Assembly: GCF_009936045.1 (NCBI RefSeq)
Contig: NZ_QWEQ01000029.1
Location: 1 to 37,487, forward strand
From: Emergencia sp. 1XD21-10
Lineage (GTDB): Bacteria > Bacillota > Clostridia > Peptostreptococcales > Anaerovoracaceae
DNA length: 37,487 bases
Direction: 5' to 3'
The position numbers and the translations under genes are program-made. Shown here in pieces: positions 16,493 to 35,863 of this stretch (position 1 is its first letter; every line of letters begins with the position of its first letter). The notes beneath the pieces are model-generated. The model made no database searches, was not told the DNA's origin, and saw only the letters and a list, made by a program, of their open reading frames with translations.

Positions 16493-16504
16493 GGAGGAAT
16501 GGCA

Positions 16505-18046: not shown

Positions 18047-20434
18047 ATGGAGAAAGTAAAAACCCATTATGTACCAAGGGAACAGAAACGCTATATGGGT
18101 ACATACAGGCCAAAGATTGATGCTAAGGAGAAAACTTTGGGGAAAACCCAATATCTCGACGATATTACCTTGAAGGGAAAACTGCCGGGAATGCTCTATG
18201 CAAAGATTTTAGAGTGTCCTTATCCACATGCGAAGGTTCTTAAGATGAATACGGAAAAAGCAGAGGCCTTGCCTGGTGTGTGGGCAGTGCTTCGATGTGA
18301 CGATCCGGAAATTCGCGCATTAGGAAGAACTACCCATTGCTGGACAGATATTGCGATTACACCGAAGGATGTCGACACCGTCATGCGATATTGGGATCGG
18401 GAGTTTTTGCCGGAAACAGGACTTTGGGTTGGCGACCATATGGGCGTAGCAGTTGCAGCGGAGTCACCGGAGATTGCTGAAGAGGCGCTAAAACTGGTGG
18501 AGATCAAGTGGGAAATTTTGCCCGCTATTTATGAGATGGAGGAAGCCAAACAAGCAGATGCGGTTATCATTCATCCGGAATTAGATGAGACGACAAACCA
18601 GCTGCGCCACAGTGAAGATGGCATTGAAAACGATCTTTACTACAGTCGCGGAGATGTGGACAAAAATATGGAAGCTGCAGACTTTATTTTAGAAGTGGAC
18701 AAGACCTATGGTGGGGTATCGACTCACGGCTGCTTGGAGTACCGTGGCTGTGTCATCGACTGGAGAGAGGACAAGATGGATGTATGGACCAACCACTATA
18801 TGTCCGATCAGACGAGAATGTTTCTCCATGATTACACCCACGTGCCTCTTAACAAAATCCGCGTCAGAAACGGAAACAGCGGCGCACATATGGGAAAATG
18901 GAATACAGGAGAAGATATCTTTTTCATCATTACAGCTTACTTATCTAAGCGGGCAGGAAAACCGGTGCGCTACAAGATGACCAACCATGAGGAATTCCAT
19001 GAGACAAGAAATCTAAATCGGTACAGAGTAAAGGCCGGATGCACCAAGGAAGGAAAGGTGCTGGCGCTGGATATGATTTGCGAGGGTAATACGGGGGCAT
19101 ATATTGGAGCCTGCGACCATAATGTGGAGTTTCTGGTACGGGAAGTGCTGGACAGAGACTTTGCGCCGGTAAACCATATCCGAATGCATTCCTATACCTG
19201 GTTCACCAACAGAATTCCGGGCGGCGTGGTACGCGGCATTGGTAATGTGCAGCTATGTTGGACCTTCATGGCGTTGCTTGATGAACTGGCAGAAAAAACG
19301 GGCATTGATGTGCTGGAAATTTTAAAAATGAATTGTGGTAACGATGTCAACTGGCAGGGAGAAGCCAATCACAGCATTTGCAAGGTGTTAGACCTCGGCG
19401 CAGAGGCAATCGGCTGGGGTAATCGCCACAAGGCGGGCAAGGGTCCTTTCATTGATGGGTACAAGAAAAGAGGCAAGGGAGTAGCTATCTGGAATCAATG
19501 GCACGCAGAATTAAACGAGCTGACACGAGGGTTTTACGAAGTCAGCATTCGATTAAATCCCGATATGTCTGTAATCATTCAAGCGCCAACCTCAGAGACT
19601 GGTGCAGGAGGCAACAGCGCCGCAGTTTTTGCCTGTGCGGAAAATCTTGCCTATCTGGATGTAAAACCGGAGGATATTTTGTGGACGCCTCTTGGCGATA
19701 CAGAACTGGGATTAAGAGATAATGCGCCAACCGACAGTGTAATTTCTTTCCTTTATGCCGAGGCAATGGTAGAGGCTGCAGAGAAATTGAAAGCTGAGAT
19801 TTTGCGCAGAGTCGGCGAATATATGGAGAAAGAACCTTCTCTTTTAGACATTGAACACGGGGAAGTCTATGAGCGAGCTAATCCGGAGAACAGAGTCGGT
19901 GTAGAGTGGTTTATGCTACATACAGATTGTGTGCCGATTCATATTCATCATGCAAGACACAACGTGAGAGAACAGGCGGGGCTTCCTTTCGGAGCCTGGT
20001 TTGTGGAAGTTGAAGTGGATACAGAGCTGGGCAATGTAGAAGTTGTCGATATGGTCGTTGTCAACGATGTGGGGTGTGTTATGCACGCTTCCGGCGCAGA
20101 AAGTCATCAGATCAGCGGACAGGCTATGGGCGTAGGCGAGGTGCTGATGGAGCAGCTGCACTATGACTTTGAAACAGGAACAATACTCAATAACAACTAC
20201 ATCGATTACAAGATGATGACCATGGCGGATTTTCCAAAGCAGATTACACCGATTTTGGTAGAAGAATGGCAAGGACTTGGCAGATATGGTGCAGCTGGCA
20301 TGGCAGAAGGCGCTTTTACGGGAACGGGAGCAGCCATTGCAAACGCCATATATAATGCGGTGGGGATAAGGGTTGACGAGCAGTCCATTACGCCGGAGGC
20401 TGTACTTGATAAAATTGTGAAGTTACAAAAATGA
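18047..20434 (+). CDS. Xanthine-dehydrogenase-family molybdopterin-binding large subunit, copy 1
   Basis: The product has 795 residues, the usual length for the molybdenum subunit of three-subunit hydroxylases, which oxidise N-heterocycles, aldehydes or CO with water as oxygen donor. The family layout is clear (LGKTQYLDDI near the start, KMTNHEEFHETR ~310, PGGVVRGIGNVQ with R396, AAIANAI at the end with a probable catalytic E754 in AAGMAEGAFTG). The usual GGGFGGK motif is replaced by GNSGAHMGKW (~276-285) and the usual GVGE by GMAE. This marks a divergent subgroup, so the substrate should not be assumed to be xanthine. It has its own sigma-54 promoter but no 2Fe-2S or FAD partner next to it; it probably uses those encoded downstream. 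About four of five residues match the copy at 21132 by eye. Confidence 0.88.
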   Translation: MEKVKTHYVPREQKRYMGTYRPKIDAKEKTLGKTQYLDDITLKGKLPGMLYAKILECPYPHAKVLKMNTEKAEALPGVWAVLRCDDPEIRALGRTTHCWTDIAITPKDVDTVMRYWDREFLPETGLWVGDHMGVAVAAESPEIAEEALKLVEIKWEILPAIYEMEEAKQADAVIIHPELDETTNQLRHSEDGIENDLYYSRGDVDKNMEAADFILEVDKTYGGVSTHGCLEYRGCVIDWREDKMDVWTNHYMSDQTRMFLHDYTHVPLNKIRVRNGNSGAHMGKWNTGEDIFFIITAYLSKRAGKPVRYKMTNHEEFHETRNLNRYRVKAGCTKEGKVLALDMICEGNTGAYIGACDHNVEFLVREVLDRDFAPVNHIRMHSYTWFTNRIPGGVVRGIGNVQLCWTFMALLDELAEKTGIDVLEILKMNCGNDVNWQGEANHSICKVLDLGAEAIGWGNRHKAGKGPFIDGYKKRGKGVAIWNQWHAELNELTRGFYEVSIRLNPDMSVIIQAPTSETGAGGNSAAVFACAENLAYLDVKPEDILWTPLGDTELGLRDNAPTDSVISFLYAEAMVEAAEKLKAEILRRVGEYMEKEPSLLDIEHGEVYERANPENRVGVEWFMLHTDCVPIHIHHARHNVREQAGLPFGAWFVEVEVDTELGNVEVVDMVVVNDVGCVMHASGAESHQISGQAMGVGEVLMEQLHYDFETGTILNNNYIDYKMMTMADFPKQITPILVEEWQGLGRYGAAGMAEGAFTGTGAAIANAIYNAVGIRVDEQSITPEAVLDKIVKLQK

Positions 20435-20611: not shown

Positions 20612-21139
20612 ATGAACAAAGATGTAATTCAAATGAATGTAAATGGACGTGCCTATGCCTTGAAAAAGGGAAGGGATTATGAAGAGGCGGATACACTGTC
20701 AAAGGTGCTGAGAGAACACTTCGGTTTGACAGGCGTACGCGTATCCTGCGAGCAGGGTGCTTGTGGTGCGTGTACGGTTTTAATAAATGGTAAATCAGCA
20801 CTTTCGTGTATGATGCTGGTAACCGATGCAGATGGATGTGATATTTTGACTATAGAGGGCTTAGATGGAAGTGATCCTGTGGTTGATGCTTTTGTCAATA
20901 CATACGGACCCGGAGAAGGGACTGCCATGCAGTGTGGTTTTTGTACGCCGGGCTTTGTTATGGAAACGCATTCTTTACTCAATGAAAATCCAAACCCCAC
21001 AGACGAAGAAATTACGGAAGCATTGTCAGGTCATATTTGCCGCTGCGGTTGCTATCACGGAATCCACAAAGCGGTAGAAAAAGCCGCAGACCATATTTGC
21101 AAGTGCAGGGAAGAGGCAAAGGAGGCTTCAAATGAGTAA
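20612..21139 (+). CDS. 2Fe-2S subunit of molybdenum hydroxylase
   Basis: The product has 175 residues. The plant-type 2Fe-2S cluster ligands are C46, C51, C54 and C66 (CEQGACGAC ... C). The second cluster has C108, C111, C143 and C145 (QCGFCTPG ... CRCG). This is the standard small subunit (CoxS/XdhC-type) that passes electrons from the molybdenum centre to the FAD subunit. A short Cys-containing charged tail extends beyond the usual end. It overlaps the next gene by eight bases, so it is probably translationally coupled. Confidence 0.95.
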   Translation: MNKDVIQMNVNGRAYALKKGRDYEEADTLSKVLREHFGLTGVRVSCEQGACGACTVLINGKSALSCMMLVTDADGCDILTIEGLDGSDPVVDAFVNTYGPGEGTAMQCGFCTPGFVMETHSLLNENPNPTDEEITEALSGHICRCGCYHGIHKAVEKAADHICKCREEAKEASNE

Positions 21140-23531
21140 AGATAGGATTGCCTATGTGCCGAGAGAGCAAAAACGTTATATGGGTACATATCGTCCGAAG
21201 ATTGATGCCAAGGAGAAGACCCTCGGGAAAACCCAGTATTTGGATGATATCACCTTGAAGGGAAAACTGCCGGGCATGCTCTATGCAAAGATTTTGCAGT
21301 GCCCGTATCCCCATGCAAGAATTTTAAAGATGAATACGACGAAAGCCGAGGAACTGCCGGGCGTTTTTGCAGTGCTTCGCTATGACGATGAAGAAATCCG
21401 GGCGCTTGGCAGAACCACCCATGCGTGGACAGATATTGCCATTACGCCAAAAGAGTCGGATACGATTACGCGTTATTGGGACAGGGATTTCTTACCGCAG
21501 ACAGGTCTTTGGGTCGGAGATCATATGGGAGTTGCAGTTGCGGCTGAAACCCCTGAAATTGCAGATGAAGCTTTAAAACTAATCGACATTAAGTGGGAAA
21601 TTCTTCCGGCTGTATATGAAATGGATGAGGCGAAAAAGCCGGATGCACCGATTTTGCATCCGGAACTGAACCCTTCTACAAACCAGCTTAGACACAGTGA
21701 AGATGGAATTGAGAACCATCTCTTCTATAAGAGAGGAGATGTAGAAAAATCTTTGCGGGAAGCTGACTTTGTACTGGAGGTAGAAAAAACCTATGGCGGG
21801 GTCAGCACCCATGGCTGTTTGGAGTACAGAGGCTGCGTGATACGCTGGGATGAGGACAAAATGGACGTTTGGACCAACCATTATATGAGTGACCAAACCA
21901 GAATGTATCTTCACGATTATACCCACGTTCCGTTAAATAAAATCCGTGTCAGAAACGGAAACAGCGGCGCACATATGGGTAAATGGAACACTGGGGAAGA
22001 TATCTTCTTTATGATTACTGCGTATCTGTCAAAAAGAGCGGGAGGCCGGCCTGTCAGATATAAGATGACAAACCATGAAGAGTTTCACGAAACCCGAAGT
22101 GAAAATCGATATAAAATTAAAGCAGCCTGCACAAATAGCGGAAAGATTACCGGTATGGAAATGATCGCAGAGGGAAACAGCGGCGCATATATCGGCGGCT
22201 GTGACCATAATGTAGAGTTCATTGTCAGTGAAACCATGAACAGAGCCTTTGCTCCTGTTGAACATGTCAGCCTGTATTCCTATACTTGGTTTACAAATAA
22301 AGTTCCGGGTGGTGTCGTACGCGGTATCGGGAATGTGCAGCTTTGCTGGTGCTTTATGTCGCTGTTAGATGAACTGGCGGAAAGAACCGGCATTGATGTG
22401 ATAGATATTATTAAGCTGAACTGCACCAATGACTTTAATTGGCCGGGGGAAAAGAATCGGAGTATTTGCAGAGTGCTGGACGAAGGTGCAAAAATAATCG
22501 GCTGGAAAAATCGCCATAAGGCCGGTGAAGGGCAGTTGATTGAAGGATGTAAAAAACGTGGCATGGGTGTAGCTGTATGGAATCAGTGGCATGCGGAGCT
22601 TAATGAATTAACGCGCGGCTTCTATGAAGTGAGCATCAGACTGAATCCGGATATGTCGGTAATTATTCAAGCGCCGACCTCAGAAACAGGGGCTGGCGGC
22701 AACAGTGCGGCAGTCTTTGCCTGTGCAGAAAATCTGCATTATCTCAATATTAAACCGGAAGATATTCTGTGGACACCACTTGGCGATACGGAATTGGGAC
22801 TGCGGGATAATGCACCGACAGACAGTGTCGTTTCTTTCCTTTACGCAGAGGCGATGGCAGAAGGTGCGCAGAAGCTAAAGAGTGAAATCCTGCGCAGAGT
22901 CGGCGAATATATGGAAAAAAGTCCGGAAGAATTGGAAATCGAAGATGGGTATGTCTTTGAAAAGGTAAAGCCGGAAAACCGTATTGGTGTTGAATGGTTC
23001 ATGCTGCATACCGACTGTGTACCAATTCATATTCATCATGCGCGCCATAATGTGAGAGAGGAAGCAGGATTGCCATTTGGCGCATGGTTTGCAGATGTAG
23101 AGGTAGATATTGAAACAGGCCAGGTTGAGGTAACCGATATGGTAGTCCTCAATGATGTGGGCTGCGTTATGCACGCCTCCGGAGCAGAAAGTCATCAGAT
23201 CAGCGGACAGGCCATGGGAATCGGAGAAGTCCTCTTTGAAGAACTTCACTACGATAAAGAGACTGGAACTGTTTTAAACAATAACTATATCGACTATAAA
23301 ATGATGACCATGGCAGATTTTCCAAAACAGATTATCCCTGTTTTGATAGAGGAATGGAAAGGTCTTGGAAAATATGGCGCTGCAGGCATGGCAGAAGGGG
23401 CATTTACAGGCGCCGGTGCAGCCATTGCCAACGCAATTTATAATGCTGTGGGAATCAGAATTGACGATCAGTCCATTACACCTGCGAAAGTTTTAAACAA
23501 ACTGATGGAAAAGGGAGGAAACAGAGCATGA
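21132..23531 (+). CDS. Xanthine-dehydrogenase-family molybdopterin-binding large subunit, copy 2
   Basis: The product has 799 residues and is a close paralogue of the protein at 18047. The first ~60 residues are almost identical, and the same unusual motifs occur (GNSGAHMGKW, PGGVVRGIGNVQ, AAGMAEGAFTGAGAAIANAI). Differences cluster in surface stretches and around residues 320-380. The gene sits between the 2Fe-2S gene (8-base overlap) and the FAD gene (4-base ATGA overlap), so it is the large subunit of a complete enzyme. The paralogue upstream may be an alternative large subunit for a second substrate that shares the same electron-transfer subunits. Confidence 0.9.
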   Translation: MSKDRIAYVPREQKRYMGTYRPKIDAKEKTLGKTQYLDDITLKGKLPGMLYAKILQCPYPHARILKMNTTKAEELPGVFAVLRYDDEEIRALGRTTHAWTDIAITPKESDTITRYWDRDFLPQTGLWVGDHMGVAVAAETPEIADEALKLIDIKWEILPAVYEMDEAKKPDAPILHPELNPSTNQLRHSEDGIENHLFYKRGDVEKSLREADFVLEVEKTYGGVSTHGCLEYRGCVIRWDEDKMDVWTNHYMSDQTRMYLHDYTHVPLNKIRVRNGNSGAHMGKWNTGEDIFFMITAYLSKRAGGRPVRYKMTNHEEFHETRSENRYKIKAACTNSGKITGMEMIAEGNSGAYIGGCDHNVEFIVSETMNRAFAPVEHVSLYSYTWFTNKVPGGVVRGIGNVQLCWCFMSLLDELAERTGIDVIDIIKLNCTNDFNWPGEKNRSICRVLDEGAKIIGWKNRHKAGEGQLIEGCKKRGMGVAVWNQWHAELNELTRGFYEVSIRLNPDMSVIIQAPTSETGAGGNSAAVFACAENLHYLNIKPEDILWTPLGDTELGLRDNAPTDSVVSFLYAEAMAEGAQKLKSEILRRVGEYMEKSPEELEIEDGYVFEKVKPENRIGVEWFMLHTDCVPIHIHHARHNVREEAGLPFGAWFADVEVDIETGQVEVTDMVVLNDVGCVMHASGAESHQISGQAMGIGEVLFEELHYDKETGTVLNNNYIDYKMMTMADFPKQIIPVLIEEWKGLGKYGAAGMAEGAFTGAGAAIANAIYNAVGIRIDDQSITPAKVLNKLMEKGGNRA

Positions 23532-25891
23532 AAGATTTAGAAGTATATTATGCAGGAAGCGCAAAGGAAGCTTCCGCGCTGCTGAAGGAAAAAGGTGATT
23601 CCTCCTGGCCTATGGGAGGCGGCACAGACCTGATCGGCGTCATTAGGGAAGGCATTTTGCCACAGCAAATTAATGAAATAGTATCTTTGAAAAAGGCGGA
23701 GGATTTACAAGGTATTACCAACGATGAAAACTATTTAACGCTGGGCGCGGCAACAACACTTTCTGAAATTGAGAAAAATGCGGAAATCAACCAAATTTTT
23801 CCGGCATTGGCAGAGGCGGCAAGAACAGTTGCATCGCCACAAATCAGACACGTTGCGACAGTCGGCGGCAACATCTGCCAACAGGTACGCTGCTGGTATT
23901 ATCGCTATCAGGGCGATAAGTTTAACTGTCTTAGAAAAGGCGGAGAACGCTGCAACGCAGTGGTAGGAAACAATCTATATCATTCAGTTTTCGGAGCTTT
24001 CAAAGTCTGCGATCCGCCGTGCCAAGTGGAGTGTCCAAACTCTACCAACATACCGGCTTATATGGAGCGGCTGCGCAGCGGCGATATTGCAGGTGCTGCA
24101 AAGATTCTCTTTGAAGTCAATCCATTGGCAGCGGTAACGGGCAGAATCTGTCCTCATACCTGTGAGCAGACCTGCAACAGAAAGAAATTTGATGAAAGTG
24201 TCTCCGTTAGGGAAGCAGAACGTTTTCTCGGCGATTATGTGCTGGAACATCCGGAAGATTTCATTACCCCGCCTAAGAAAGAAAGCGGCAAAAAGGTTAC
24301 CGTTATCGGCAGTGGTCCTGCCGGATTATCAGCGGCATTTTATCTGCGGCAGGCGGGACATACAGTGACGATACTGGATCAGAATCCGGAAATCGGCGGT
24401 ATGCTGTATTACGGAATTCCGTCCTACAGACTGCCAAAGGAAATCTTGGCAAGATATAAGGAAATCTTGCTGGGTCTGGGTGTGAACTTCAGGATGAATA
24501 CCAAGGTAGGAGAAACTGTTACACTGGAGGATTTATACAAGGAATGTGATATTGTTCTTGTAGGAATTGGTGCATGGGTTTCACTGGGTCTTGAATTTGA
24601 GGGAAAAGATGCAGAAGGCGTACTCAATGCCCTTGAATTTCTGCAAAAAGCAGCGGACAGAGTACCGCAGAAGCTGGGAGAAAAAGTAGTCGTTATCGGC
24701 GGCGGTAATACTTCCTTCGACGTTTGTCGAAGTGCAAGAAAGATGGGAGCAAAGGAAGTTACTCTGCTGAGTATTCTGCCATATGACGAAATGCCGGCAG
24801 AAGAGGAGGAAATTACAGAAGCGCTGGAAGAGGGCGTACAAATTCTGGATTTGACCACCTTGCAGAAGGTCATCAAAGGAGAAAACGGAGAAGTTAAAAC
24901 GCTGGTACTACAGCAAATGGAAAAAATCGATGAGGATGAAACGGGGCTTGGGAATATTGCGCCGGTTCAGGATGTAACCAGAGAGCTTGAGGCAGATAAT
25001 GTCATAGTTGCAATCGGACAGACCATTGATTTAGAAGGCTTTGAGTCCTTAAGCAGCGGCGGCAGACTGATTGCGCTTTCTGAAAAAGAAAGCGGAAAGA
25101 CCTTTGAAGAAGCAATCTTTGCAGCAGGAGATGCAGCCTATGGCCCGGCAACTGCAGTCAAGGCAATTTTCCAAGGAAGAAACTGTGCAAAGTCCATCTG
25201 CGAAACCATCGGCGGAATGGAGGAAGTGGTACAGACTGAAAGAGGCGAAAAAATCTCCTTCAGCTCATATGCGCTGCAGAAAACGGAAAAAGCAAAGACT
25301 GCCAATGCACCTTTAGAGGAGCGGGAACTGTATAAAGAAATTTCTACGACCCTCAACATAGAAGAAATTTTGCAGGAGGCAGAGCGCTGCTTAAACTGCG
25401 GATGTGTAGCTGTCAGTCCTACGGATGTAGGCACAGCCCTAATTGCACTTGATGCGATGATCGTAACAAATGAACGGGAGATTTTGGCAGAGCATTTCTT
25501 TAAGGCGGCTGTTATGGGCTCTACCGTGCTGGAAAAAGGCGAAATCGTTACGAAAATTCGTGTGCCGCAAGCGGCAGCCGGAAACAAGCAGATTTACTAC
25601 AAGCATAGAACCAGAAAGTCCATCGATTTCCCAATCCTAAGCATCGCGTTAAATGCGGATATGGACGGACAGAAGGTCAAGGACATCAGAGTCGTATTTG
25701 GAGCGGCAGCGCCGGTTCCAAAGCGGATGCACCAAGTAGAAGAGTTTCTTCGCGGAAAAGATCTGACTCGCCAAGTAGCAGAGGAAGCAGCAGCCCTTGC
25801 TGTTGAAGATTGTGTACCCCTTGCAGAAAATGCCTATAAGGTACATCTGCTAGAAGTACTAACCCGCAGAACTTTGGAAAAGCTGATATAA
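23528..25891 (+). CDS. CoxM-type FAD subunit with an inserted GltD-like NAD(P)H/Fe-S oxidoreductase module
   Basis: The product has 787 residues; stand-alone FAD subunits have about 280-330. Residues 1-156 are the N-terminal FAD domain (MGGGTDLIG ~29-37; TVGGNICQQVRCWYYR ~111-126, with C122, C134 and C142 of an extra Fe-S site like that of PaoB). At YHSVFG (151-156) it breaks off and a GltD-like module begins: Cys ligands C161, C165, C169, C208, C212 and C216, an FAD fold VIGSGPAGLSAA (259-270), a second Rossmann fold VIGGGNTSFD (389-398), FAAGDAAYGP (531-540) and a last Cys group C621/C624. The FAD subunit then resumes at CVAVSPTDVGTALIALDA (626-643) and continues to the end. One chain thus probably carries two FADs and several 4Fe-4S clusters, wiring the hydroxylase to NAD(P). 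Confidence 0.88.
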   Translation: MKDLEVYYAGSAKEASALLKEKGDSSWPMGGGTDLIGVIREGILPQQINEIVSLKKAEDLQGITNDENYLTLGAATTLSEIEKNAEINQIFPALAEAARTVASPQIRHVATVGGNICQQVRCWYYRYQGDKFNCLRKGGERCNAVVGNNLYHSVFGAFKVCDPPCQVECPNSTNIPAYMERLRSGDIAGAAKILFEVNPLAAVTGRICPHTCEQTCNRKKFDESVSVREAERFLGDYVLEHPEDFITPPKKESGKKVTVIGSGPAGLSAAFYLRQAGHTVTILDQNPEIGGMLYYGIPSYRLPKEILARYKEILLGLGVNFRMNTKVGETVTLEDLYKECDIVLVGIGAWVSLGLEFEGKDAEGVLNALEFLQKAADRVPQKLGEKVVVIGGGNTSFDVCRSARKMGAKEVTLLSILPYDEMPAEEEEITEALEEGVQILDLTTLQKVIKGENGEVKTLVLQQMEKIDEDETGLGNIAPVQDVTRELEADNVIVAIGQTIDLEGFESLSSGGRLIALSEKESGKTFEEAIFAAGDAAYGPATAVKAIFQGRNCAKSICETIGGMEEVVQTERGEKISFSSYALQKTEKAKTANAPLEERELYKEISTTLNIEEILQEAERCLNCGCVAVSPTDVGTALIALDAMIVTNEREILAEHFFKAAVMGSTVLEKGEIVTKIRVPQAAAGNKQIYYKHRTRKSIDFPILSIALNADMDGQKVKDIRVVFGAAAPVPKRMHQVEEFLRGKDLTRQVAEEAAALAVEDCVPLAENAYKVHLLEVLTRRTLEKLI

Positions 25892-25971: not shown

Positions 25972-25989
25972 ATGATGAGGAGGCAAGCG

Positions 25990-26778
25990 ATGAAAAAAAC
26001 ATGTAAACAGGCAGCAATATTGCTGACAATGATACTTCTGCTTTTACTCGGGAGCTGCGGAGAAAGGGAGAAAGAAACAGAGCCTGCAGAGCTGCACGTA
26101 TTTGCAGCAGCTTCTATGACTGAAGTCTTGACAGAACTTGGAAATACATATATGCAGGAGAATAAAGAAGTAAAGCTGGTATTTAATTTCGACTCTTCAG
26201 GAACGCTGCTGACCCAAATTGAAGAAGGTGGAGCGTGCGACATCTTTATATCCGCAGCCCAGCAGCAGATGGATGCTCTTTCTGACCGTGTAGAGGACAG
26301 CCGCTTTGATATTTTGGAGAACAAGGTGGTTCTAACAGTGCCGGAGGGAAATCCCGCAGAAATAGAATCCTTTGAGGATCTAAAAAAAGGGCTTGAAGAG
26401 GGAACGATTATTTTAGCCATGGGTAACAGCGATGTACCTGTAGGGCAGTATACCCAGAAGATTTTGGATTACCTGGGGCTTTCAGAACAGGCGCTGTCTA
26501 AGGCAGGACTGATTACCTACGGCAGCAATGTAAAAGAAGTTACAACCCAGTTGACAGAGGCAATGGTAGATTGCGGCATTATCTATGAGACAGATGCAAA
26601 GACTGCGGGATTAACCGTAGTGGATACTGCGGAGGAAAAGATGTGCGGACAGGTTATCTATCCGGCGGCTTTGCTGGATACATCAAAAAAACTTGAAGAG
26701 GCAAAAGCATTTTTAGACTTTTTGCAGGGCGAAGAAGCTGCTGCTGTATTTTTAAAGTATGGCTTTACACCCGTGTAG
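25990..26778 (+). CDS. modA: Molybdate-binding lipoprotein ModA
   Basis: The start ATG 25990 follows GAGGAGG (25977-25983); an ATG at 25972 overlaps the operator and ribosome site and is unlikely. The product has about 262 residues. A lipoprotein signal ends in LLLLLGSC, giving a lipid-anchored cysteine. The mature protein shows the ModA pattern: LHVFAAASMTEVL, FNFDSSGTLLTQIEEGGACDIFISA, and later VGQYTQKIL and CGIIYETDA. It captures molybdate (or tungstate) outside the membrane and passes it to ModBC. It is the first gene of the long molybdenum operon. Confidence 0.93.
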   Translation: MKKTCKQAAILLTMILLLLLGSCGEREKETEPAELHVFAAASMTEVLTELGNTYMQENKEVKLVFNFDSSGTLLTQIEEGGACDIFISAAQQQMDALSDRVEDSRFDILENKVVLTVPEGNPAEIESFEDLKKGLEEGTIILAMGNSDVPVGQYTQKILDYLGLSEQALSKAGLITYGSNVKEVTTQLTEAMVDCGIIYETDAKTAGLTVVDTAEEKMCGQVIYPAALLDTSKKLEEAKAFLDFLQGEEAAAVFLKYGFTPV

Positions 26779-26813
26779 CAGTGATAACTTGAAGTATAGA
26801 AGGAGAGAAAAGT

Positions 26814-27503
26814 ATGGATTGGTTTCCGCTGCTGAATTCGCTGCGTATTGCCTTAATCAGTACAGTTTTGGTATTTTTTTCAGGGATTGCTGCGGCATAC
26901 TACATTTCCAAATTACCGCGACTTGTCAAAGGCTGTTTAGACGTAGCTCTAACCCTGCCCCTTGTACTGCCGCCTACGGTGATAGGCTTTCTGCTGCTGA
27001 AAATACTGGGTCCAAGGCGAATGGTTGGAAGCTGGCTTCTTGAGATGTTCGATGTCAAACTGACTATGCAGTGGTGGTCTGCTATCTTTGCAACTGCAGT
27101 AGTCGTTTTTCCGCTGATGTATAGAACGGCGCGAGGTGCATTTGAATCCTTCGATGAAAATTTGGCATATGCGGGCAGAACCTTAGGGCTGACGGATACG
27201 TATGTTTTTTGGCATATTCGTATGGCGGAATGCAGACAGGGAATTCTTGCAGGAACGGTTTTGACTTTTGCAAGAGGTCTTGGCGAATATGGAGCAACCA
27301 GTATGGTGTCAGGGTACATGCCGGGAAAAACCGCTACAATTTCAACGACAGTTTACCAACTGTGGCAGACCGGACAGGACGGGCTAGCGGGCAGGTGGGT
27401 ACTTGTCAATTTGGGTATTTCCTTTATTGTACTTTTAGCTGTGAATCTGCTGGAAAGAAAGCAGGAAAGGGGAAAGAAAAGTGGCCGTAGAAGTAGATAT
27501 TGA
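26814..27503 (+). CDS. modB: Molybdate ABC transporter permease ModB
   Basis: The product has 229 residues and about five membrane helices. The conserved permease sequences LPLVLPPTVIGFLLL (~45-59) and the EAA-type loop AGRTLGLTDTYVFWHIRM, followed by GLGEYGATSMVSG, identify ModB. It starts at ATG 26814 behind AAGGAGAG and overlaps modC by 23 bases, as often seen in modBC. Confidence 0.93.
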   Translation: MDWFPLLNSLRIALISTVLVFFSGIAAAYYISKLPRLVKGCLDVALTLPLVLPPTVIGFLLLKILGPRRMVGSWLLEMFDVKLTMQWWSAIFATAVVVFPLMYRTARGAFESFDENLAYAGRTLGLTDTYVFWHIRMAECRQGILAGTVLTFARGLGEYGATSMVSGYMPGKTATISTTVYQLWQTGQDGLAGRWVLVNLGISFIVLLAVNLLERKQERGKKSGRRSRY

Positions 27504-28548
27504 AAAGAGACTTGGGAATTTTCAGCTGTCAGTACAGTTTCAGGCAGGTGAAGAAACGTTGGCAATATTAGGTTCTTCAGGGTGCGGGAAAACGATGACC
27601 CTCAAATGCATTGCAGGAATTGAAAAACCAGATTGCGGCCGGATTGTACTGAATCAAAAGGTGCTATTTGATTCAGCAAAGGGTATCGACTTGCCGCCGC
27701 AGCAGAGGCATACGGGGCTTTTGTTTCAGGATTATGCCCTGTTTTCCTCAATGACGGTACTGGAAAATATTATGGCAGGCGCTTATCGCAGAAAAAAATC
27801 CCTTCGGAAAAGCTTAGCTTTGGATATGATTGAACGAATGGGATTAAAGGATTTGATGAATCACTATCCTGCGCAGCTTTCCGGTGGACAAAGACAGCGA
27901 ACTTCCCTCGCTCGAATGTTGCTTTCAGCTCCGGAAATACTGCTTTTGGACGAGCCCTTTTCGGCGCTTGACTCTCATCTTCGTCAGAAGATGGAGCAGG
28001 AGATTAAGCTGTTGCTGAGAGACTTTGGAAAAACTGCTATTTTAGTTTCCCACGATATAGAGGAGAGCTATCGTATGGCAAGACGTATTGCAGTTATGGG
28101 TGAAGGCGTTATAGAGAACATCGGAGAAAAGACAGAACTTTATCGCAATCCCAAAACGAAAAAAGGCGCACAGCTTTTAGGCTGTAGAAATTTTTCTCGG
28201 GCAATATGTCAATCGGGCGGATGGGTATATGCGCAGGACTGGAATCTAAAGCTTTGGGCGAAGAAGGCGCAGGACAGAGCCGGCGCAGCCTGCTATGTTG
28301 GAATCAGAGAGGGGGATTTCAGGCTGGTAAGACCAGGGAATCCAAGGGAAAATCGTTGCAAATGTACAGTAGAAGGATATTTGGAAAATCCGGACTGCTT
28401 CATTCTTTTGCTCAGACCCCATGGAGCAAAAGCAGAAACGATTCTGCGCTGCCAGCTGCCTTTTGGACTAGATGAGATGCAGAAGAAGGACTGTACAGAG
28501 GTCGAGATTTATTTGCCGCCTGCTGCCGTCATGCTGCTGACAGAGTAA
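27481..28548 (+). CDS. modC: Molybdate ABC transporter ATPase ModC
   Basis: The start is GTG 27481 inside the end of modB. The product has 355 residues with Walker A GSSGCGKT (~32), Q-loop LFQDYALF, signature LSGGQRQR and Walker B LLLDEPFSALD, followed by the switch histidine in LVSHDIEE. The C-terminal 120 residues form an accessory domain in the place of the molybdate-binding TOBE domain, but this part is divergent. It powers import by ModAB. A C-terminal oxyanion sensor role is possible. Confidence 0.92.
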   Translation: MAVEVDIEKRLGNFQLSVQFQAGEETLAILGSSGCGKTMTLKCIAGIEKPDCGRIVLNQKVLFDSAKGIDLPPQQRHTGLLFQDYALFSSMTVLENIMAGAYRRKKSLRKSLALDMIERMGLKDLMNHYPAQLSGGQRQRTSLARMLLSAPEILLLDEPFSALDSHLRQKMEQEIKLLLRDFGKTAILVSHDIEESYRMARRIAVMGEGVIENIGEKTELYRNPKTKKGAQLLGCRNFSRAICQSGGWVYAQDWNLKLWAKKAQDRAGAACYVGIREGDFRLVRPGNPRENRCKCTVEGYLENPDCFILLLRPHGAKAETILRCQLPFGLDEMQKKDCTEVEIYLPPAAVMLLTE

Positions 28549-28568: not shown

Positions 28569-29585
28569 ATGAGAAAAATCAGAGTAGAAGATGCCGTCGG
28601 ACAAAGATTATGTCACGATATTACCGCCATGAGAGACGGATTTAAAGGTGCGGCATTTCGCCGCGGACATGTGATTTCTAAGAAGGATATAGAAGCTTTA
28701 TTGGCAATTGGTAAGAAGCATATTTTCATTTGGGAAGATAAGGCTGGGGAAATACATGAAGAGGAGGCGGCACAGCGTCTTGCCACTATGGCGTCGTTGC
28801 AGGATGCACATTACGAGGGACCATCTGAAGGAAAAATGGTATTGAAAGCAGATACCTCCGGAATGTTTCGGGTAAATCGCAGACTCCTTTCGGAAATAAA
28901 TCGAATAGGTGACATTACTATAACGACTTTGCCGGATCATTATCCCGTTCAGAAAGGAGACAGAATGGCTTCTATGAGAATCATACCGCTGGTGACAACG
29001 GAAGAGCAAATTGAACAGGCAGAGAAACTATGTCAGAATGAAAAACTATTGTCTCTTTTGCCCTATAAAAAGAAAAAGGTCGGTATTATCATCACCGGGT
29101 CGGAAATATATGAGGGACGAATTGCCGATAAATTTGAAATGGTAGCGAAAAAGAAGCTGACAGCTTTTCCTTGCGAAGTGCTTGGCGCAACAATTTGCGA
29201 TGACAGACAGGAACAGATTGTCGAAGCGGCGCAGTCATATTTGGATCAGGGTGCAGAACTTTTACTTTTCTCAGGTGGTATGTCGGTGGATCCTGATGAT
29301 TTGACACCAGCGGCAATCAAAGCGTGTGGTGCTGAGATTATCACATATGGTGTGCCAAGTCAGCCGGGCAATATGACCTTGGTTTCTTATTTGGGCAAAG
29401 CTGCGCTGGTCGGCGTACCGGGAGCGGCTATCAGTCTGCCGGTTACAGTTTTAGACGTATTGCTGCCCCAGCTGTTTACTGATGTGAAAATAACAAAAGA
29501 AGATATGCTGGCCTTAGCAGAAGGGGGACTGTGTCAACTGTGCGAGGTTTGTCATTTTCCCAATTGTACATTTGGGAGGTACTGA
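28569..29585 (+). CDS. MoeA-like molybdopterin-binding protein with C-terminal Cys cluster
   Basis: The product has 338 residues, shorter than MoeA (~400). The C-terminal half has the MoCF/MogA-like fold (KKVGIIITGSEIYEGRI ~168, LLLFSGGMSVDPDDLTP ~232, LVGVPGAAISLPVTVLD). The first half lacks some MoeA domains. The last twenty residues contain C322, C325, C328 and C333, a possible Fe-S or zinc site. Proteins of this type occur next to XDH-family hydroxylases and probably handle molybdopterin during insertion of Mo or cofactor maturation. The next gene starts a few bases after the stop. It is a candidate dedicated maturation factor rather than housekeeping MoeA. Confidence 0.8.
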   Translation: MRKIRVEDAVGQRLCHDITAMRDGFKGAAFRRGHVISKKDIEALLAIGKKHIFIWEDKAGEIHEEEAAQRLATMASLQDAHYEGPSEGKMVLKADTSGMFRVNRRLLSEINRIGDITITTLPDHYPVQKGDRMASMRIIPLVTTEEQIEQAEKLCQNEKLLSLLPYKKKKVGIIITGSEIYEGRIADKFEMVAKKKLTAFPCEVLGATICDDRQEQIVEAAQSYLDQGAELLLFSGGMSVDPDDLTPAAIKACGAEIITYGVPSQPGNMTLVSYLGKAALVGVPGAAISLPVTVLDVLLPQLFTDVKITKEDMLALAEGGLCQLCEVCHFPNCTFGRY

Positions 29586-29588
29586 GCG

Positions 29589-30563
29589 ATGAAGAAAAAA
29601 ACCTTTGCTGCTGTGATACCGGCGGCAGGACTGTCTTCACGTATGGGCAATTTTAAGCCTTTGATGCCTTTTGGAGAAACTACAGTATTGCAATCTATTC
29701 TGCATCTGCTCAAAGCAAAGAAGGTGACGGAAATTGCAGTGGTAACAGGATATCGGGCTGAAGAGATGAACTATGTTTTGCAGCAGGAAGATATTACTAT
29801 TTTATATAACGGCGCATACAGGAAAAGTCATATGTTCGACTCCATCTGCATGGGATTTGACTATATGAAAGACAGGGCGGAGCACGTGATTCTGTGGCCG
29901 GTAGACATTCCCGCGGTGACAGAAGAAACCGTGGAGAAGCTCCTTTGCGCAGCGGAAAAAAGTGAAGGCGTTGTATATCCTGTGCATAACGGTATCAGCG
30001 GACATCCTGTGATTTTTTCGGAGGCTGCTTATGAGAAAATTCTCTCCCATGACGGACGGGAAGGGCTTTACGGGGTGTTGAAAAAAATCCAGGCTGTCAC
30101 AGAGATAGCGGTGGAGGATCCCTTTGTACTTATGGACATGGATACGAAGGAAGACTATCGTCTTTTAGTGGAGAAGAAACAGGCTTGGGAGAGGGAAACG
30201 CTTATGGGAAGCAGGGTGACACCTTTTACCTTTACATGTCAGGTGTCTTTGCAGTATGGAGAGATATTTTTTGACGAAAAATTGGTTTACTTGTTGAATT
30301 TTGTGGATCGCTTAGGTTCATTAAAAAAAGCATGTGAGGAAATGGGCATTGCCTATAGCTACGGGTGGAAGCTTATTAAAAATGCAGAGCGACGAGCCGG
30401 ATTTTCCATGCTTTGCAAAAATCCGGGCGGGATAGGAGGCGGAGGATCCACCTTAACGCCATCTTGCAGGCAGTTAATCGGTTCCTATGAGCTGTTTTGC
30501 AAACAGCTTAAAACTTGCGGTCAGGAAATATTTTTGGGCTGTTTTGACTGGTACAGACGTTAA
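29589..30563 (+). CDS. MocA/MobA-like nucleotidyltransferase fused to a ModE-type DNA-binding domain
   Basis: The product has 324 residues. Residues 1-~198 are an NTP transferase with the loop IPAAGLSSRMGNFKPLMPFG and the metal-binding segment WPVDIPAV (~103-110), as in MocA, which makes the cytosine dinucleotide form of the molybdenum cofactor used by XDH-family enzymes. Residues ~213-324 match the N-terminal winged helix of ModE (LLNFVDRLGSLKKACEEMGIAYSYGWKLI, then the glycine-rich GGIGGGGSTLTP). No molybdate-binding MOP domain follows. The chain may therefore couple cofactor synthesis with control of the operator at 25944. This coupling is inference. Confidence 0.87.
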   Translation: MKKKTFAAVIPAAGLSSRMGNFKPLMPFGETTVLQSILHLLKAKKVTEIAVVTGYRAEEMNYVLQQEDITILYNGAYRKSHMFDSICMGFDYMKDRAEHVILWPVDIPAVTEETVEKLLCAAEKSEGVVYPVHNGISGHPVIFSEAAYEKILSHDGREGLYGVLKKIQAVTEIAVEDPFVLMDMDTKEDYRLLVEKKQAWERETLMGSRVTPFTFTCQVSLQYGEIFFDEKLVYLLNFVDRLGSLKKACEEMGIAYSYGWKLIKNAERRAGFSMLCKNPGGIGGGGSTLTPSCRQLIGSYELFCKQLKTCGQEIFLGCFDWYRR

Positions 30564-30575
30564 CAGGAGGTAGAA

Positions 30576-31607
30576 ATGAAGCAGATTTGTCGATTTATTA
30601 AGGAAAACTTGGAGGAAGGAAAGGCGTGTACGCTGATTACGATTATCTCAAGCGAAGGCTCGGCGCCCAGAGGCGCAGGTACTAGTATGGCAGTCAGTCA
30701 AACTGGGCAGTGCTTTGGAACAATCGGCGGAGGAGCTGTGGAGCATAGGGTTTCCAAGATGGCGGCGGATGTGATGAAAAAAGGTCGCTCTAAAACGGAT
30801 TTTTTTATGCTGCACCCCAATGACGTACAGGATTTGGGAATGATTTGCGGCGGCGATATCAGAGTATATTTGCAGTATATCGCACCATCAGATGAAAACT
30901 GCGCTCTTTATGAAACTATCTGCAAGGAGGCAGAAAGCAACGAAAACCGCTGGATTGTATTTGAGGTGGATGAAAGGCAGCACAGCACTGTCAGCGTCCT
31001 TTCAGAGACGGAAGTGGTAGCAGGGGCAAAGTCTGCAATTCAGTATTTAAACTGTTTGAGCACGGCGGCTACAGCTTCTTGGAGGGAGACGGGAAGCTAC
31101 TACATTCAGCCGCTGGCAGTGAAAGGAAAGGTCTACATTTTCGGAGGAGGTCATATTGCCAGAAAATTGGTGCCGGTGCTGAGCGGAATAGATTTTTCTT
31201 GTGTCGTATATGACAGTTTGGAGGAATTTGCAGATCCGTCAGATTTTCCTTTGGCAAAAGAAGTTATTTGCGGATCCTTTGATTGTGTTAACGATCGTTT
31301 GCGGCTAGACGAAGCAGACTTTGCGGTGATTATGACCCGCGGTCATGCCTTTGATTATACGGTGCTGCGTCAAGTTTTGGTAAAGCACACAGCTTATACG
31401 GGGATGATCGGCAGTAGAAGCAAAGTGCAGACAACACGTACACGGCTTCTTGGTGATGGCTTTTCAGAAGCGGATATTGCAAGAATTCATTCGCCCATCG
31501 GTCTTTCCATCGGTGCACAGACACCGGCGGAAATTTCTGTCAGCATTGCAGCGGAGATGATTGCAGTGCGGGCTGCCCTAAGGAAAGGTGAAAAAACGGA
31601 GAATTAA
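30576..31607 (+). CDS. xdhC: XdhC/CoxI-family hydroxylase maturation factor
   Basis: The product has 343 residues, starting at ATG 30576 behind CAGGAGG. The N-terminal XdhC domain reads LITIISSEGSAPRGAGTSMAV and GTIGGGAVEH; the C-terminal Rossmann-type domain reads VYIFGGGHIARKLVPVL (~186) and continues to the family's typical IHSPIGLSIGAQTPAEISVSIAAEMI. XdhC binds the sulfurated or dinucleotide cofactor and inserts it into XDH-type large subunits. It lies in the molybdenum operon and probably serves the two large subunits encoded upstream. Confidence 0.93.
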   Translation: MKQICRFIKENLEEGKACTLITIISSEGSAPRGAGTSMAVSQTGQCFGTIGGGAVEHRVSKMAADVMKKGRSKTDFFMLHPNDVQDLGMICGGDIRVYLQYIAPSDENCALYETICKEAESNENRWIVFEVDERQHSTVSVLSETEVVAGAKSAIQYLNCLSTAATASWRETGSYYIQPLAVKGKVYIFGGGHIARKLVPVLSGIDFSCVVYDSLEEFADPSDFPLAKEVICGSFDCVNDRLRLDEADFAVIMTRGHAFDYTVLRQVLVKHTAYTGMIGSRSKVQTTRTRLLGDGFSEADIARIHSPIGLSIGAQTPAEISVSIAAEMIAVRAALRKGEKTEN

Positions 31608-31608
31608 A

Positions 31609-32205
31609 ATGAGTGACAGAACTTTTTATTTGGTGCGCCATGGAGTTTCAATTTTACAGGAAAACGGTAGAGTCTGTCTGGGAAAAGGCAGCGACCCACC
31701 CTTAGCGCCTTCCGGATTTGAACAGGTTGAGAAACTGATGGAAACCTCCTTTTTTCGCAGAGTCAAAAGTGTAAAAGCAGTTTATTGCAGCCCGCTTCTA
31801 AGAAGCAAACAGACAGCTGTGGTATTAGCTGAAGGCACGCGAGAAATTCGAGTGGAAAGCGGGCTTTCTGAAATGGACATGGGGCTGTGGGAAGGTATGT
31901 ATTTCAAACAGATTGAAAAGGAATTTCCGTTGCAGTATGCACTGCGGGGCTTGCACCTGTCAGTGCCACCGCCAGCAGGGGAAACCTTTGCAGAGGCAGC
32001 AAGCCGGATGGAGGAAACCCTTTTTCGAATGATGGAGGCACATCCCAAGGAGAAAAAATTCTTAGTTGTGGTACATACCGGCATTGCCAGCGCCTTTTTA
32101 TGCCACATTGCTAATAAAGATTTTGACGAAAACAGAGGGTGCAGATTGACTCACTGTGGTCATGCAGTGGTAAAGTACAGGGATGGAGGCTTTGAGAAAA
32201 AATGA
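31609..32205 (+). CDS. Histidine phosphatase (phosphoglycerate-mutase/CobC-like) in a molybdenum operon
   Basis: The start ATG 31609 is preferred to the upstream GTG 31588 because of CGGAG at 31598-31602. The product has 198 residues. The RHG motif (FYLVRHGVS), the second arginine in CSPLLRSKQTA, the E of LSEMDMGLWEG and the late histidine in VVVHTGIA define an active histidine phosphatase. Its stop overlaps the moaA start (ATGA), so it is cotranscribed and coupled. A role in cofactor or nucleotide metabolism is suggested by context only; the substrate is unknown. Confidence 0.82.
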   Translation: MSDRTFYLVRHGVSILQENGRVCLGKGSDPPLAPSGFEQVEKLMETSFFRRVKSVKAVYCSPLLRSKQTAVVLAEGTREIRVESGLSEMDMGLWEGMYFKQIEKEFPLQYALRGLHLSVPPPAGETFAEAASRMEETLFRMMEAHPKEKKFLVVVHTGIASAFLCHIANKDFDENRGCRLTHCGHAVVKYRDGGFEKK

Positions 32206-33179
32206 AAGATCAATTTGAACGAAATATAGACTATCTGCGCCTTTCAGTGACAGATCGATGTAATTTGCGGTGCAGATACTGTATGCCGCCTGAAGGAATC
32301 GACCCATGTGCGCATGGAGAGATTTTATCCCTTGAGGAAATTCTTCGTTTGGCCGGCTTGTTTGCAAAATGCGGCGTTCGCAAAATAAAGCTGACAGGCG
32401 GAGAACCTTTGGTGCGAAAAGATATCTCCCACCTCGTCAGAGGCCTTAAGGGGATTTCTGAAATCCAAGAAGTAACTCTGACAACCAACGGTCTGTTACT
32501 CAAGGAGCAGCTGCCGGGCTTGTTAGATGCAGGAATTGACGGTATTAACATCAGTATAGATACGCTGAAGGAGGATTGCTATCGAACTCTCACAAGAGGA
32601 GGAGAATTAAAGCAGGTCATTGAGGCTCTGGACGCCTGTTGTAAACAAGAAAATCTTGCGGTCAAGGTCAATACAGTGACTTTGGAAGAATATAACCTGA
32701 ATGAAATTGCAGCGTTGGCAGCCCTGGCAAAGGACTATCCTATGGATGTGCGTTTTATTGAAATGATGCCTATGGGACCTGGAAAGGAGTTTGCAGGATA
32801 TACGCAAGAGACGGTGCTGAAAGTATTGGAGGAGGTTTACGGCACCCCGCAGCTGACACTTGAGCAGCGGGGTAACGGTCCAGCAGTTTATTACAAGCTG
32901 GGCGGATTCTGTGGAAGAATCGGCATGATTAGTCCAATGTCCCATAGTTTTTGTAAAGAATGTAATCGGATTCGTTTGACTGCCGGAGGCTTCTTAAAAC
33001 CCTGTTTGCATCATAGTATGGGCATTGATTTGCGAAAGCTTTTGCGGTCAAAGGCGACGGATACAGAGATTTTGTCGGCAATTACAGATGGAATTTTCAG
33101 CAAGCCCAGCCGGCATATGTTTTGCACATCAGATACAGGCAACAGTGAAACGCGCAGTATGTACCAGATAGGAGGATGA
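32202..33179 (+). CDS. moaA: GTP 3',8-cyclase MoaA
   Basis: The product has 325 residues. The radical-SAM cluster ligands are C20, C24 and C27 (CNLRCRYCMPP), followed by KLTGGEPLVR. The C-terminal second cluster motif reads CKECNRIRLTAGGFLKPC. The final residues lack the GG at the very end except for YQIGG, which fits the MoaA C-terminal GG requirement. It converts GTP to 3',8-cyclo-7,8-dihydro-GTP in the first step of molybdopterin synthesis. Confidence 0.95.
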   Translation: MKDQFERNIDYLRLSVTDRCNLRCRYCMPPEGIDPCAHGEILSLEEILRLAGLFAKCGVRKIKLTGGEPLVRKDISHLVRGLKGISEIQEVTLTTNGLLLKEQLPGLLDAGIDGINISIDTLKEDCYRTLTRGGELKQVIEALDACCKQENLAVKVNTVTLEEYNLNEIAALAALAKDYPMDVRFIEMMPMGPGKEFAGYTQETVLKVLEEVYGTPQLTLEQRGNGPAVYYKLGGFCGRIGMISPMSHSFCKECNRIRLTAGGFLKPCLHHSMGIDLRKLLRSKATDTEILSAITDGIFSKPSRHMFCTSDTGNSETRSMYQIGG

Positions 33180-33181
33180 CA

Positions 33182-33643
33182 ATGATAGGAATTGTAAAAG
33201 CAGTGTGTACCAGTGAAAAAAAGGGGACTGTAAAGAAAAACGTGGGAAAGGCAGTTTTTTTAGAAAACCATGGTCTTGTAGGCGATGCTCATGCAGGAAC
33301 GTGGCATAGGCAGGTTTCCCTTCTTTCCTGGGAAAAGATAGAGGCTTTTAAGGCGCTGGGAGTTTCAGTGGATGATGGGGATTTTGGTGAAAATTTGGTG
33401 GTAAGCGGCGTGGATTTTGCACGGCTTCCCCTTGGCAGTATATTTCAGATTGGAGATGCGAAACTGGTCCTTACGCAAATCGGAAAAGAATGTCATCACG
33501 GATGCGCCATTGCACAGGCTGTCGGCAAATGTATTATGCCGACAGAAGGCGTATTTGCAAAGGTAATCAAGGGTGGAAAAGTAAAAGTCGGAGATAGGCT
33601 GGAAGTGATAACGGAGGATGAACATGAAGCTGACACACTTTGA
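33182..33643 (+). CDS. MOSC-domain protein
   Basis: The start ATG 33182 has GGAGG (33171-33175) at the right distance; ATG 33176 is too close. The product has 153 residues and is a single MOSC domain (GLVGDAHAGTWHRQVSLLSWEKI, then DGDFGENLVVSGVDF) with the conserved Cys in IGKECHHGCAI. Stand-alone MOSC proteins are thought to act as sulfur or cofactor carriers for molybdenum enzymes. It is embedded between moaA and moaC. Confidence 0.88.
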   Translation: MIGIVKAVCTSEKKGTVKKNVGKAVFLENHGLVGDAHAGTWHRQVSLLSWEKIEAFKALGVSVDDGDFGENLVVSGVDFARLPLGSIFQIGDAKLVLTQIGKECHHGCAIAQAVGKCIMPTEGVFAKVIKGGKVKVGDRLEVITEDEHEADTL

Positions 33644-34115
33644 TGAAAAGGGAAATGCGCGGATGGTAGATGTGGCGGAAAAGGATGTAACAGAGCGGCG
33701 CGCTGTAGCAAGAGGCTGTATCAAGATGTCACAGCAGGCTTATGCTGCGGTGATAGAGGGGCGCGTTGCAAAGGGCGATGTGCTGACAGTTGCAACCACA
33801 GCGGGGATTATGGCGGCTAAAAAGACGTGGGAACTGATTCCGATGTGTCATCTGCTGCCATTAGCAGGCCTTTCTGTGGACTGGATGCTGGATGATATCC
33901 ATTGCATTATTACCTGTATCTGTACTGCAAAGTCCAGCGGAAAAACCGGCGTGGAAATGGAGGCACTAACGGGAGTCAGCGTGGCGCTGTTAACCGTCTA
34001 TGACATGTGTAAAGCCATGGATAAATTCATGGAGATCGGAGAAATTCACCTTGAAGAAAAAGAAGGAGGCAAAAGCGGTCATGTCATTTTCAGAGAAAAA
34101 GAATCACATCAGTAA
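33624..34115 (+). CDS. moaC: Cyclic pyranopterin monophosphate synthase MoaC
   Basis: The start ATG 33624 lies 6 bases after GGAGG; ATG 33618 overlaps that site. The product has 163 residues. Family motifs are KKTWELIPMCHLLPL, SSGKTGVEMEALTGVSVALLTVYDMCKAMDK. The usual CHPL is CHLL here. It converts the MoaA product to cyclic pyranopterin monophosphate. It overlaps the MOSC gene at its start and the next gene at its end. Confidence 0.93.
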   Translation: MKLTHFDEKGNARMVDVAEKDVTERRAVARGCIKMSQQAYAAVIEGRVAKGDVLTVATTAGIMAAKKTWELIPMCHLLPLAGLSVDWMLDDIHCIITCICTAKSSGKTGVEMEALTGVSVALLTVYDMCKAMDKFMEIGEIHLEEKEGGKSGHVIFREKESHQ

Positions 34116-35335: not shown

Positions 35336-35863
35336 ATGGAAATATCAGCAGTGAAGTCTTATATTGCAGGGCAAAGAGAATTCATGATAAGGGATTTAGC
35401 CGGATTTGTCGCCATTCCCAGTACCACAGAGAATCGAAAGGAAGTGAGGAAAGCGCTTCGATATATTTTGAAGCTGGCTCGCGATATGGGACTTTCCGCA
35501 AAAAGTGCCCTTGATGAGCAGGTAGGCGTGATTGAGCTGGGCGATGGTGACGAAACAGTGGGGATTTTAGCGCATGTAGATGTCGTTCCGGCGGGGAATC
35601 TAGCAGCTTGGCAGACGCCTCCTTTTGTTCTCGTACAAAAGGAAAGCAAACTGTACGGAAGAGGCACTTTGGACGATAAAGGCGCAATTATTGCTTCTCT
35701 TTACGCAATGAAAGCGATGAAAGACAGTGGAATGCCAGTGCATAAAAAAATTCAACTGATTTTGGGTACGCAGGAGGAAGGGGAGTGGTCGGACATAGAT
35801 GCTTACGTGAAACAGTATCCTCTGGAGGTCATATCTGTCTGTATTCGGACACAGTTATCTTGA
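35336..35863 (+). pseudogene. Truncated M20-family (PepV-like) peptidase
   Basis: A frame of 175 residues starts at ATG 35336 behind GAGGAGG. It carries the metal ligands of PepV-type dipeptidases: H80 in LAHVDVVP, D113/D114 in GTLDDKG and E147/E148 in GTQEEGEW. Normal members have 450 residues or more; the lid domain and the remaining ligands are missing. Homology stops at about DAYVKQYP (near 35820), where the DNA joins the tail of a transporter gene in another frame. It is probably non-functional. Confidence 0.75.

Follow-up and report, generated by a model that had tools for sequence, protein, structure and literature searches.

The window analysed here, a stretch of 37,487 nucleotides from Emergencia sp. 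1XD21-10, encodes a protein in which a complete GltD-like module is nested within the FAD subunit of a molybdenum hydroxylase. We think it likely that the protein belongs to a three-subunit Mo hydroxylase, with a whole GltD-like NAD(P)H dehydrogenase lying in the [4Fe-4S] loop of its FAD subunit, and that the resulting linear relay replaces ferredoxin. Both modules are already known; their nesting inside the cluster loop is the new part, as far as the partial literature coverage shows. No description of the nested architecture was found in the literature searched, which was covered in part. The accessible excerpts of PMC6637259 and PMC9045290 contain at least three of the four Pfam names concerned, but on different proteins. 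The nested gene and its parts are as follows.

23528..25891, + strand: nested FAD subunit/GltD-like protein, 787 aa (ORF reading, Pfam)
23528..23998, + strand: N-terminal part of the four-Cys FAD subunit, residues 1-157, with GGGTDL and TVGGN motifs (Pfam, alignment)
23891..23953, + strand: C122, C134 and C142, putative ligands 1-3 of the host [4Fe-4S] cluster (alignment with 1rm6_B C122, C138, C146)
23999..25402, + strand: inserted GltD-like module, residues 158-625 (Pfam, NCBIfam, alignment, Foldseek)
24020..24034, + strand: C165 (putative distal cluster) and C169 (putative proximal cluster) (alignment with NfnB C47, C51)
24149..24220, + strand: C208, C212, C216 and E231 (alignment with NfnB C90, C96, C100, E117)
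24428..24430, + strand: R301, equivalent of StnC R239 and NfnB R201, invariant in 17 of 17 nested proteins (alignment)
24770..24778, + strand: S415-I416-L417, at the place of YRR in NADPH-type GltD modules (alignment)
25388..25405, + strand: RCLNCGC, with C621 and C624 as putative distal ligands and C626 as putative fourth host ligand (motif, 1rm6_B C155)
25403..25888, + strand: C-terminal part of the FAD subunit, residues 626-787, CO_deh_flav_C (Pfam, alignment)

The open reading frame at 23528-25891 (+) contains 787 codons without an internal stop, and its ATG overlaps the TGA of the preceding Mo-subunit gene (ATGA). Along the protein Pfam identified FAD_binding_5 (residues 4-119), Fer4_20 (161-240), Pyr_redox_2 (256-550) and CO_deh_flav_C (690-785). 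The domain search suggested in the initial annotation of this DNA therefore found Fer4_20 and Pyr_redox_2 between the two FAD-subunit domains, and together with the alignments it confirmed that a PaoB-like FAD subunit encloses a whole GltD-like module that has two Rossmann folds and cluster ligands. The split points given in that annotation, residues 156 and 626, were correct, as the flanks are adjacent in the solved FAD subunits 5y6q_B and 1rm6_B. Residue 154 of 5y6q_B corresponds to residue 157 of the window protein and its residue 157 to residue 625. For 1rm6_B, the beta subunit of 4-HBCR, one partial alignment runs through its residue 156 (window 152) and the other begins at its residue 155 (window 626), so that the two overlap by two residues. 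AlphaFold2 gave a mean pLDDT of 92.6 and a pTM of 0.88 with 68 alignment rows, and a poor model (pLDDT 62.6) with nine rows. When Foldseek was run against the PDB, the 50 listed of 1973 matches were all GltD-containing chains with a best query TM-score of 0.55, and therefore none among the matches listed covers the whole chain. Foldseek against viral models gave nothing useful.

The survey of genomes that had been proposed for the nested order was positive. Searches with the window protein or a nested-protein profile detected 17 nested genes in 14 genomes with five family codes, that is 16 genes in 13 other genomes besides the window gene, with two copies each in genomes G017, G635 and G1008. 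The architecture was found in 5 of the 148 genomes drawn from the family, in 6 of 393 from the order, in 4 of 341 from the class and in 4 of 398 from the phylum; these overlapping draws each include the window's own genome, and the counts are lower bounds, with 2 to 7 candidates scored per genome under strict E-value limits. In the phylum draw 10 further candidates passed the threshold with the GltD part alone (residues ~160-625). Beyond the phylum the scope was plasmid and viral collections and one weak scan of genome contigs. The plasmid and viral contig scans gave no nested gene. The genome contig scan gave a partial locus (L006), on a contig that begins within the insert, which was excluded from the 17. 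Two genomes (G522, G483) had ORFs resembling long fusions; these overlap with further long ORFs and were discarded on visual inspection.

All 17 nested proteins, which are 38-80% identical to the window protein, contain every one of the four Pfam domains, and by alignment the domain order was the same throughout. The draft genome is in 116 contigs, of which the window is one, as would suit an assembly or gene-calling artefact joining two genes, the error that had been named as a refutation of the nested reading. We regard such an artefact as practically excluded by the 17 genes in 14 genomes, by joints common to all of them and by invariant ligands on both sides; the nested gene of G904, which lies on a single 4.04-Mb contig, already refutes it. 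GC content was level across the joints (0.44 to 0.49).

The sequence places the host with the four-Cys FAD subunits of the xanthine oxidase family, of 4-HBCR/PaoB-like type. FAD_binding_5 and CO_deh_flav_C, which define membership, were found in 17 of 17 nested proteins. The host had at first been described as a CoxM/PaoB-type subunit. The PaoB likeness held, but plain CoxM was ruled out because the loop carries four Cys, and this [4Fe-4S] loop of the host itself had been missed. C122, C134, C142 and C626 are invariant in the 17 nested proteins, and C626 aligns with C155 of 1rm6_B. In 1rm6_B we take C122, C138, C146 and C155 to bind the [4Fe-4S] cluster of 4-HBCR, and all four positions are Cys in the aldehyde oxidase medium subunit 5y6q_B too. 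Un-nested FAD subunits of three genomes (G518, G687 and G485) also keep the four Cys, in an uninterrupted loop, and therefore the insertion opens the loop between the third and the fourth Cys of the host's own putative cluster. Those of G518 and G687 have the two plain FAD-subunit Pfam domains. The G518 protein shares 50-52% identity with the N parts and 44-48% with the C parts of the nested chains of G524 and G635, and 39% with the N part of the window protein. All four Cys were present in 6 of the 21 un-nested FAD rows of alignment A3, rows that we selected from the loci found.

4-HBCR beta is an FAD subunit by sequence with the four loop Cys at matching places, whereas the loop of the nested protein is opened by ~468 residues of GltD-like module. 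The 5y6q_B chain shares the four Cys and scores best with the FAD part, but it is uninterrupted and belongs to an oxidative enzyme. PaoB (5g5g_B), which presumably carries a cluster of its own, likewise matches the FAD part but is an uninterrupted chain of an oxidative enzyme. With NCBIfam models the FAD flanks scored 164.1 bits for XdhB (NF043083, cut-off 310) and 145.1 bits for 4-HBCR beta (TIGR03195, cut-off 404.55), and by the latter cut-off the protein falls outside 4-HBCR proper. Among solved chains the whole query scored 118 bits with 5y6q_B and 96 bits with 1rm6_B. Since 5y6q_B, from an aldehyde oxidase, shares the four Cys and scores better than 1rm6_B, a four-Cys loop does not mark the enzyme as reductive.

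The insert has the features of a GltD-like protein: Fer4_20, Pyr_redox_2 and two Rossmann fingerprints were found in 17 of 17 nested proteins, and the eight ligand residues for two [4Fe-4S] clusters are present by sequence as seven Cys and E231, with two of the Cys at the C-terminal instead of the N-terminal end. The invariant Cys of the nested proteins are 122, 134, 142, 165, 169, 208, 212, 216, 621, 624 and 626, to which Glu231 is added; C161 of the window protein is not conserved among them. In NfnB the distal cluster is bound by C39, C42, C47 and C100 and the proximal cluster by C51, C90, C96 and E117 (PMC7596348, excerpts). In the alignment with 4ylf_B, its C47, C51, C90, C96, C100 and E117 correspond to window residues 165, 169, 208, 212, 216 and 231, as counted along the printed alignment. 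C621 and C624 belong to the RCxNC motif at the opposite end of the module and probably stand in for C39 and C42 of NfnB. RCxxCxC was found near the matched end in 20 of 40 compared GltD modules, StnC-like ones included. The twelve ligands (11 Cys and Glu231) are enough for three [4Fe-4S] clusters, and we infer a distal cluster at C165/C216/C621/C624, a proximal one at C169/C208/C212/E231 and the host cluster at C122/C134/C142/C626. A single cluster should bring the two ends of the module together, which suggests why an insertion at this point could be tolerated.

The insert had been compared with YgfK of E. coli. GltD-like it is, but it is closest to the PRK12771/StnC type (450 bits, under the cut-off) and scored 274.6 bits with the YgfK model (TIGR03315, cut-off 835.3), so that a YgfK-type insert was rejected. 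In E. coli YgfK and YgfM are a GltD-like protein and a FAD_binding_5/CO_deh_flav_C protein, as here, but on separate chains. The closest solved GltD module is StnC, in Stn of Sporomusa ovata (8oh5) and in NfnABC (9bov, 9n5u), with RCLxCGC at its C-terminal end. In contrast to the nested proteins, StnC has Lys170 where they have Glu (17 of 17) and is fused to NuoG/FdhF-like domains, with no Mo-hydroxylase FAD subunit in the accessible excerpts. Two marks of the Stn/NfnABC StnC family, a NuoG/FdhF-like domain (by Pfam) and the Lys at the proximal cluster, are both missing from the window protein. Of the 30 other GltD modules compared at the proximal position, 28 have Lys, one His and one Glu. 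NfnB/NfnI-L shares the Glu(Cys)3 proximal cluster and the corresponding Arg; according to the excerpts it differs as a stand-alone chain with an N-terminal Cys39/Cys42 pair that works with NfnA and bifurcates. Dihydropyrimidine dehydrogenase also holds a GltD-like domain and a second flavin site in one chain, linked by [4Fe-4S] clusters, but as an end-to-end fusion in which the second flavin is FMN in a DHODH-like domain, and no Mo is present (PMC8097209, excerpts). One nested protein (L029:490-3204, G635:C117) has a Gly/Ala-rich stretch of ~110 extra residues close to the end of its GltD module. Another large GltD fusion was seen at L099, L100, L102-L104 and L107, where PRK12771-like modules lie in open frames of 1,486-1,505 aa.

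Quick trees were made from the FAD and the GltD columns separately, the latter, like A3, with 30 modules taken in out of 40 examined. In the FAD tree a branch (SH-aLRT 81) sets all 17 nested rows apart, with the un-nested G518, G687 and G485 proteins as neighbours; in the GltD tree the branch that sets them apart has support 100. The trees are compatible with one insertion event; they do not prove a single origin, and support in the FAD half is just 81.

The surroundings of the nested gene fit a molybdenum enzyme, with Mo and [2Fe-2S] subunits encoded beside it.

18047..20434, + strand: Mo-binding large subunit 1, 795 aa, 81% identical to subunit 2 (Pfam)
20612..21139, + strand: [2Fe-2S] small subunit, 175 aa (Pfam)
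21132..23531, + strand: Mo-binding large subunit 2, 799 aa (Pfam, NCBIfam, solved-chain comparison)
25972..28548, + strand: solute-binding protein, permease and ATPase in modABC order, putative molybdate transport (Pfam)
28569..34620, + strand: Moco-related genes, namely MoCF_biosynth, MobA-like, XdhC, histidine phosphatase, radical SAM/Mob_synth_C (MoaA), MOSC, MoaC and MoCF_biosynth (Pfam)

One [2Fe-2S] gene and one nested gene are common to the two Mo subunits, and the modABC-like transporter and the Moco genes follow. At 16 of the 17 loci, two of them cut by contig ends, the nested gene has a Mo-subunit gene next to it, and the [2Fe-2S] gene was seen at 15 of 17. A search of the window's genome with one Mo-subunit query found no further copy. 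Around the un-nested genes of G485 and G518 no GltD gene was found within 18-19 kb with the window protein as query; a ferredoxin-like ORF beside those of G485 had a Fer4 match of 20.8 bits, just under the cut-off of 21.1.

With a complete GltD-like module in the FAD subunit and the Mo and [2Fe-2S] subunits alongside, a built-in connection to NAD(P) would follow, in support of the initial annotation. In GltS, DPD, Nfn and AegA a GltD-like part makes electrons of NAD(P)H available to another protein, and the excerpts of the same source name no Mo-hydroxylase partner for such parts (PMC8097209). The cofactors would form a single line, NAD(P)H - FAD - proximal - distal - host [4Fe-4S] - FAD - two [2Fe-2S] - Mo. 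In the RCxNC-x-C motif the putative distal and host ligands are two residues apart, and these two clusters should therefore be within electron-transfer distance. 4-HBCR accepts reduced ferredoxin (PMC12771579, excerpts). Since the insert sits at the cluster presumed to take the ferredoxin electrons in 4-HBCR, it would work as a tethered port, in which the GltD module takes the place of the diffusing ferredoxin and gives ferredoxin-free access to the NAD(P) pool. The nested module probably swaps a loose electron carrier for a built-in wire. Mo hydroxylases differ largely in the route by which electrons enter or leave, and here one electron-entry protein has been put, possibly once, into the cluster loop of another, which offers a direct view of the step from a diffusible carrier to a wired one. 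The architecture also serves as a marker of NAD(P) linkage for a group of anaerobic Mo enzymes that are still uncharacterised.

A three-residue motif allows a guess at the preferred cofactor. In NfnB the YRR motif holds the phosphate of NADPH; DsrL-2, which has YRR, uses NADP(H) alone, whereas two DsrL-1 enzymes without it prefer or require NAD(H) (PMC7596348, excerpts). DsrL is thus a GltD-like relay in which YRR predicts NADP(H) versus NAD(H) and which runs both ways, but its partner is the sulfite reductase DsrAB and the excerpts describe no nesting. YRR was present in 28 of 30 compared GltD modules. The 17 nested proteins differ among themselves, with YRR in two, ARR in two, xLE in 11 and SIL in two, the window protein being one of the last. 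Because YRR is missing, and by the DsrL precedent, the window enzyme is predicted to lean to NAD(H); the acidic xLE replacement would be a signal of the NAD(H) type.

The direction of the relay is close to evenly balanced, because 4-HBCR beta matches the FAD part with a lower score than XdhB or the aldehyde oxidase subunit does. NAD(H)-driven reduction of the substrate holds about half of our expectation, and the same relay run oxidatively, in which the substrate is hydroxylated and electrons leave through the nested module to reduce NAD+, comes close to half as well. Oxidation would agree with the absence of YRR/ARR in 13 of 17 nested proteins, window included, as loss of YRR in DsrL accompanies NAD(H) use and oxidation (PMC7596348, excerpts). 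It would also agree with the large subunit, for which the best NCBIfam score was that of the XdhA model (below the cut-off), and with 5y6q_B as the closest solved FAD subunit over the whole query. However, the best solved relative of Mo subunit 2 is the alpha subunit of the reductive enzyme 4-HBCR (161 bits, next 129), and Ucdh, a 4-HBCR-like three-subunit urolithin C dehydroxylase, is driven by NADH (PMC12771579, excerpts). The finding bears on gut chemistry, since such an NADH-driven reductive enzyme of the family was recently reported, the second after 4-HBCR (same source, excerpts).

Two readings depart from a linear NAD(P)-linked relay altogether. The initial annotation had raised bifurcation between the two flavins, and in the corresponding model one of them would split electrons (or combine them, in confurcation) among NAD(P), ferredoxin and the Mo centre. 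The two flavin sites, the invariant R301 and Glu231 as an NfnB/GltS-type ligand (Glu in 17 of 17, as against Lys in nearly all compared modules) speak for it. But the same Glu ligand occurs in GltS (PMC8097209, excerpts), StnC keeps the Arg and yet its GltD FAD is non-bifurcating (PMC10482914, excerpts), and the putative cofactors fall in a single line. No NfnA/PyrK-like partner was seen by Pfam among the 26 scanned of the 56 window ORFs of at least 100 aa, and as the second electron branch that bifurcation needs was not seen, the proposal was not supported and we consider it very improbable. The same low probability goes to a two-flavin Mo enzyme that would couple NAD(P)H, ferredoxin and the Mo substrate, with ferredoxin docked at one of the three [4Fe-4S] clusters. 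Hardly more probable is a nested module that mainly docks ferredoxin or is structural, with NAD(P)H turnover gone. Loss of the YRR phosphate-binding motif in the window protein would suit such a role, but both glycine-rich Rossmann fingerprints are kept in 17 of 17 nested proteins, and the acidic xLE of 11 is of the kind that might be expected for NAD(H). The linear NAD(P)-linked relay remains our preferred reading.

Some further features were observed at the nested loci. A Mo subunit was looked for in one genome (G1078) and none was found. The divergent nested gene of that genome (L078:4338-9367, G1078:C22) adjoins a [2Fe-2S] gene and a FAD_binding_2/Succ_DH_flav_C flavoprotein, and its relay may serve a non-Mo enzyme. 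At L076:3628-5940 (G1008:C27) the Mo-subunit gene consists of two open frames with one TAA between them. In the window an amidohydrolase and two TldD/PmbA-like genes (13972-17800) precede the Mo genes, and the same TldD/PmbA pair lies beside the Mo gene of the G028 locus; these genes may hint at an amide or peptide-like substrate. Towards the end of the window, a short Peptidase_M20 ORF of 175 aa (35336-35863) matches positions 2-74 of the 206-position model and is perhaps a remnant. Upstream of the cluster, at 1170-5491, lie a transposase-like gene (HTH_38, rve) and a MobL relaxase with Sel1 repeats, which may belong to a mobile element.
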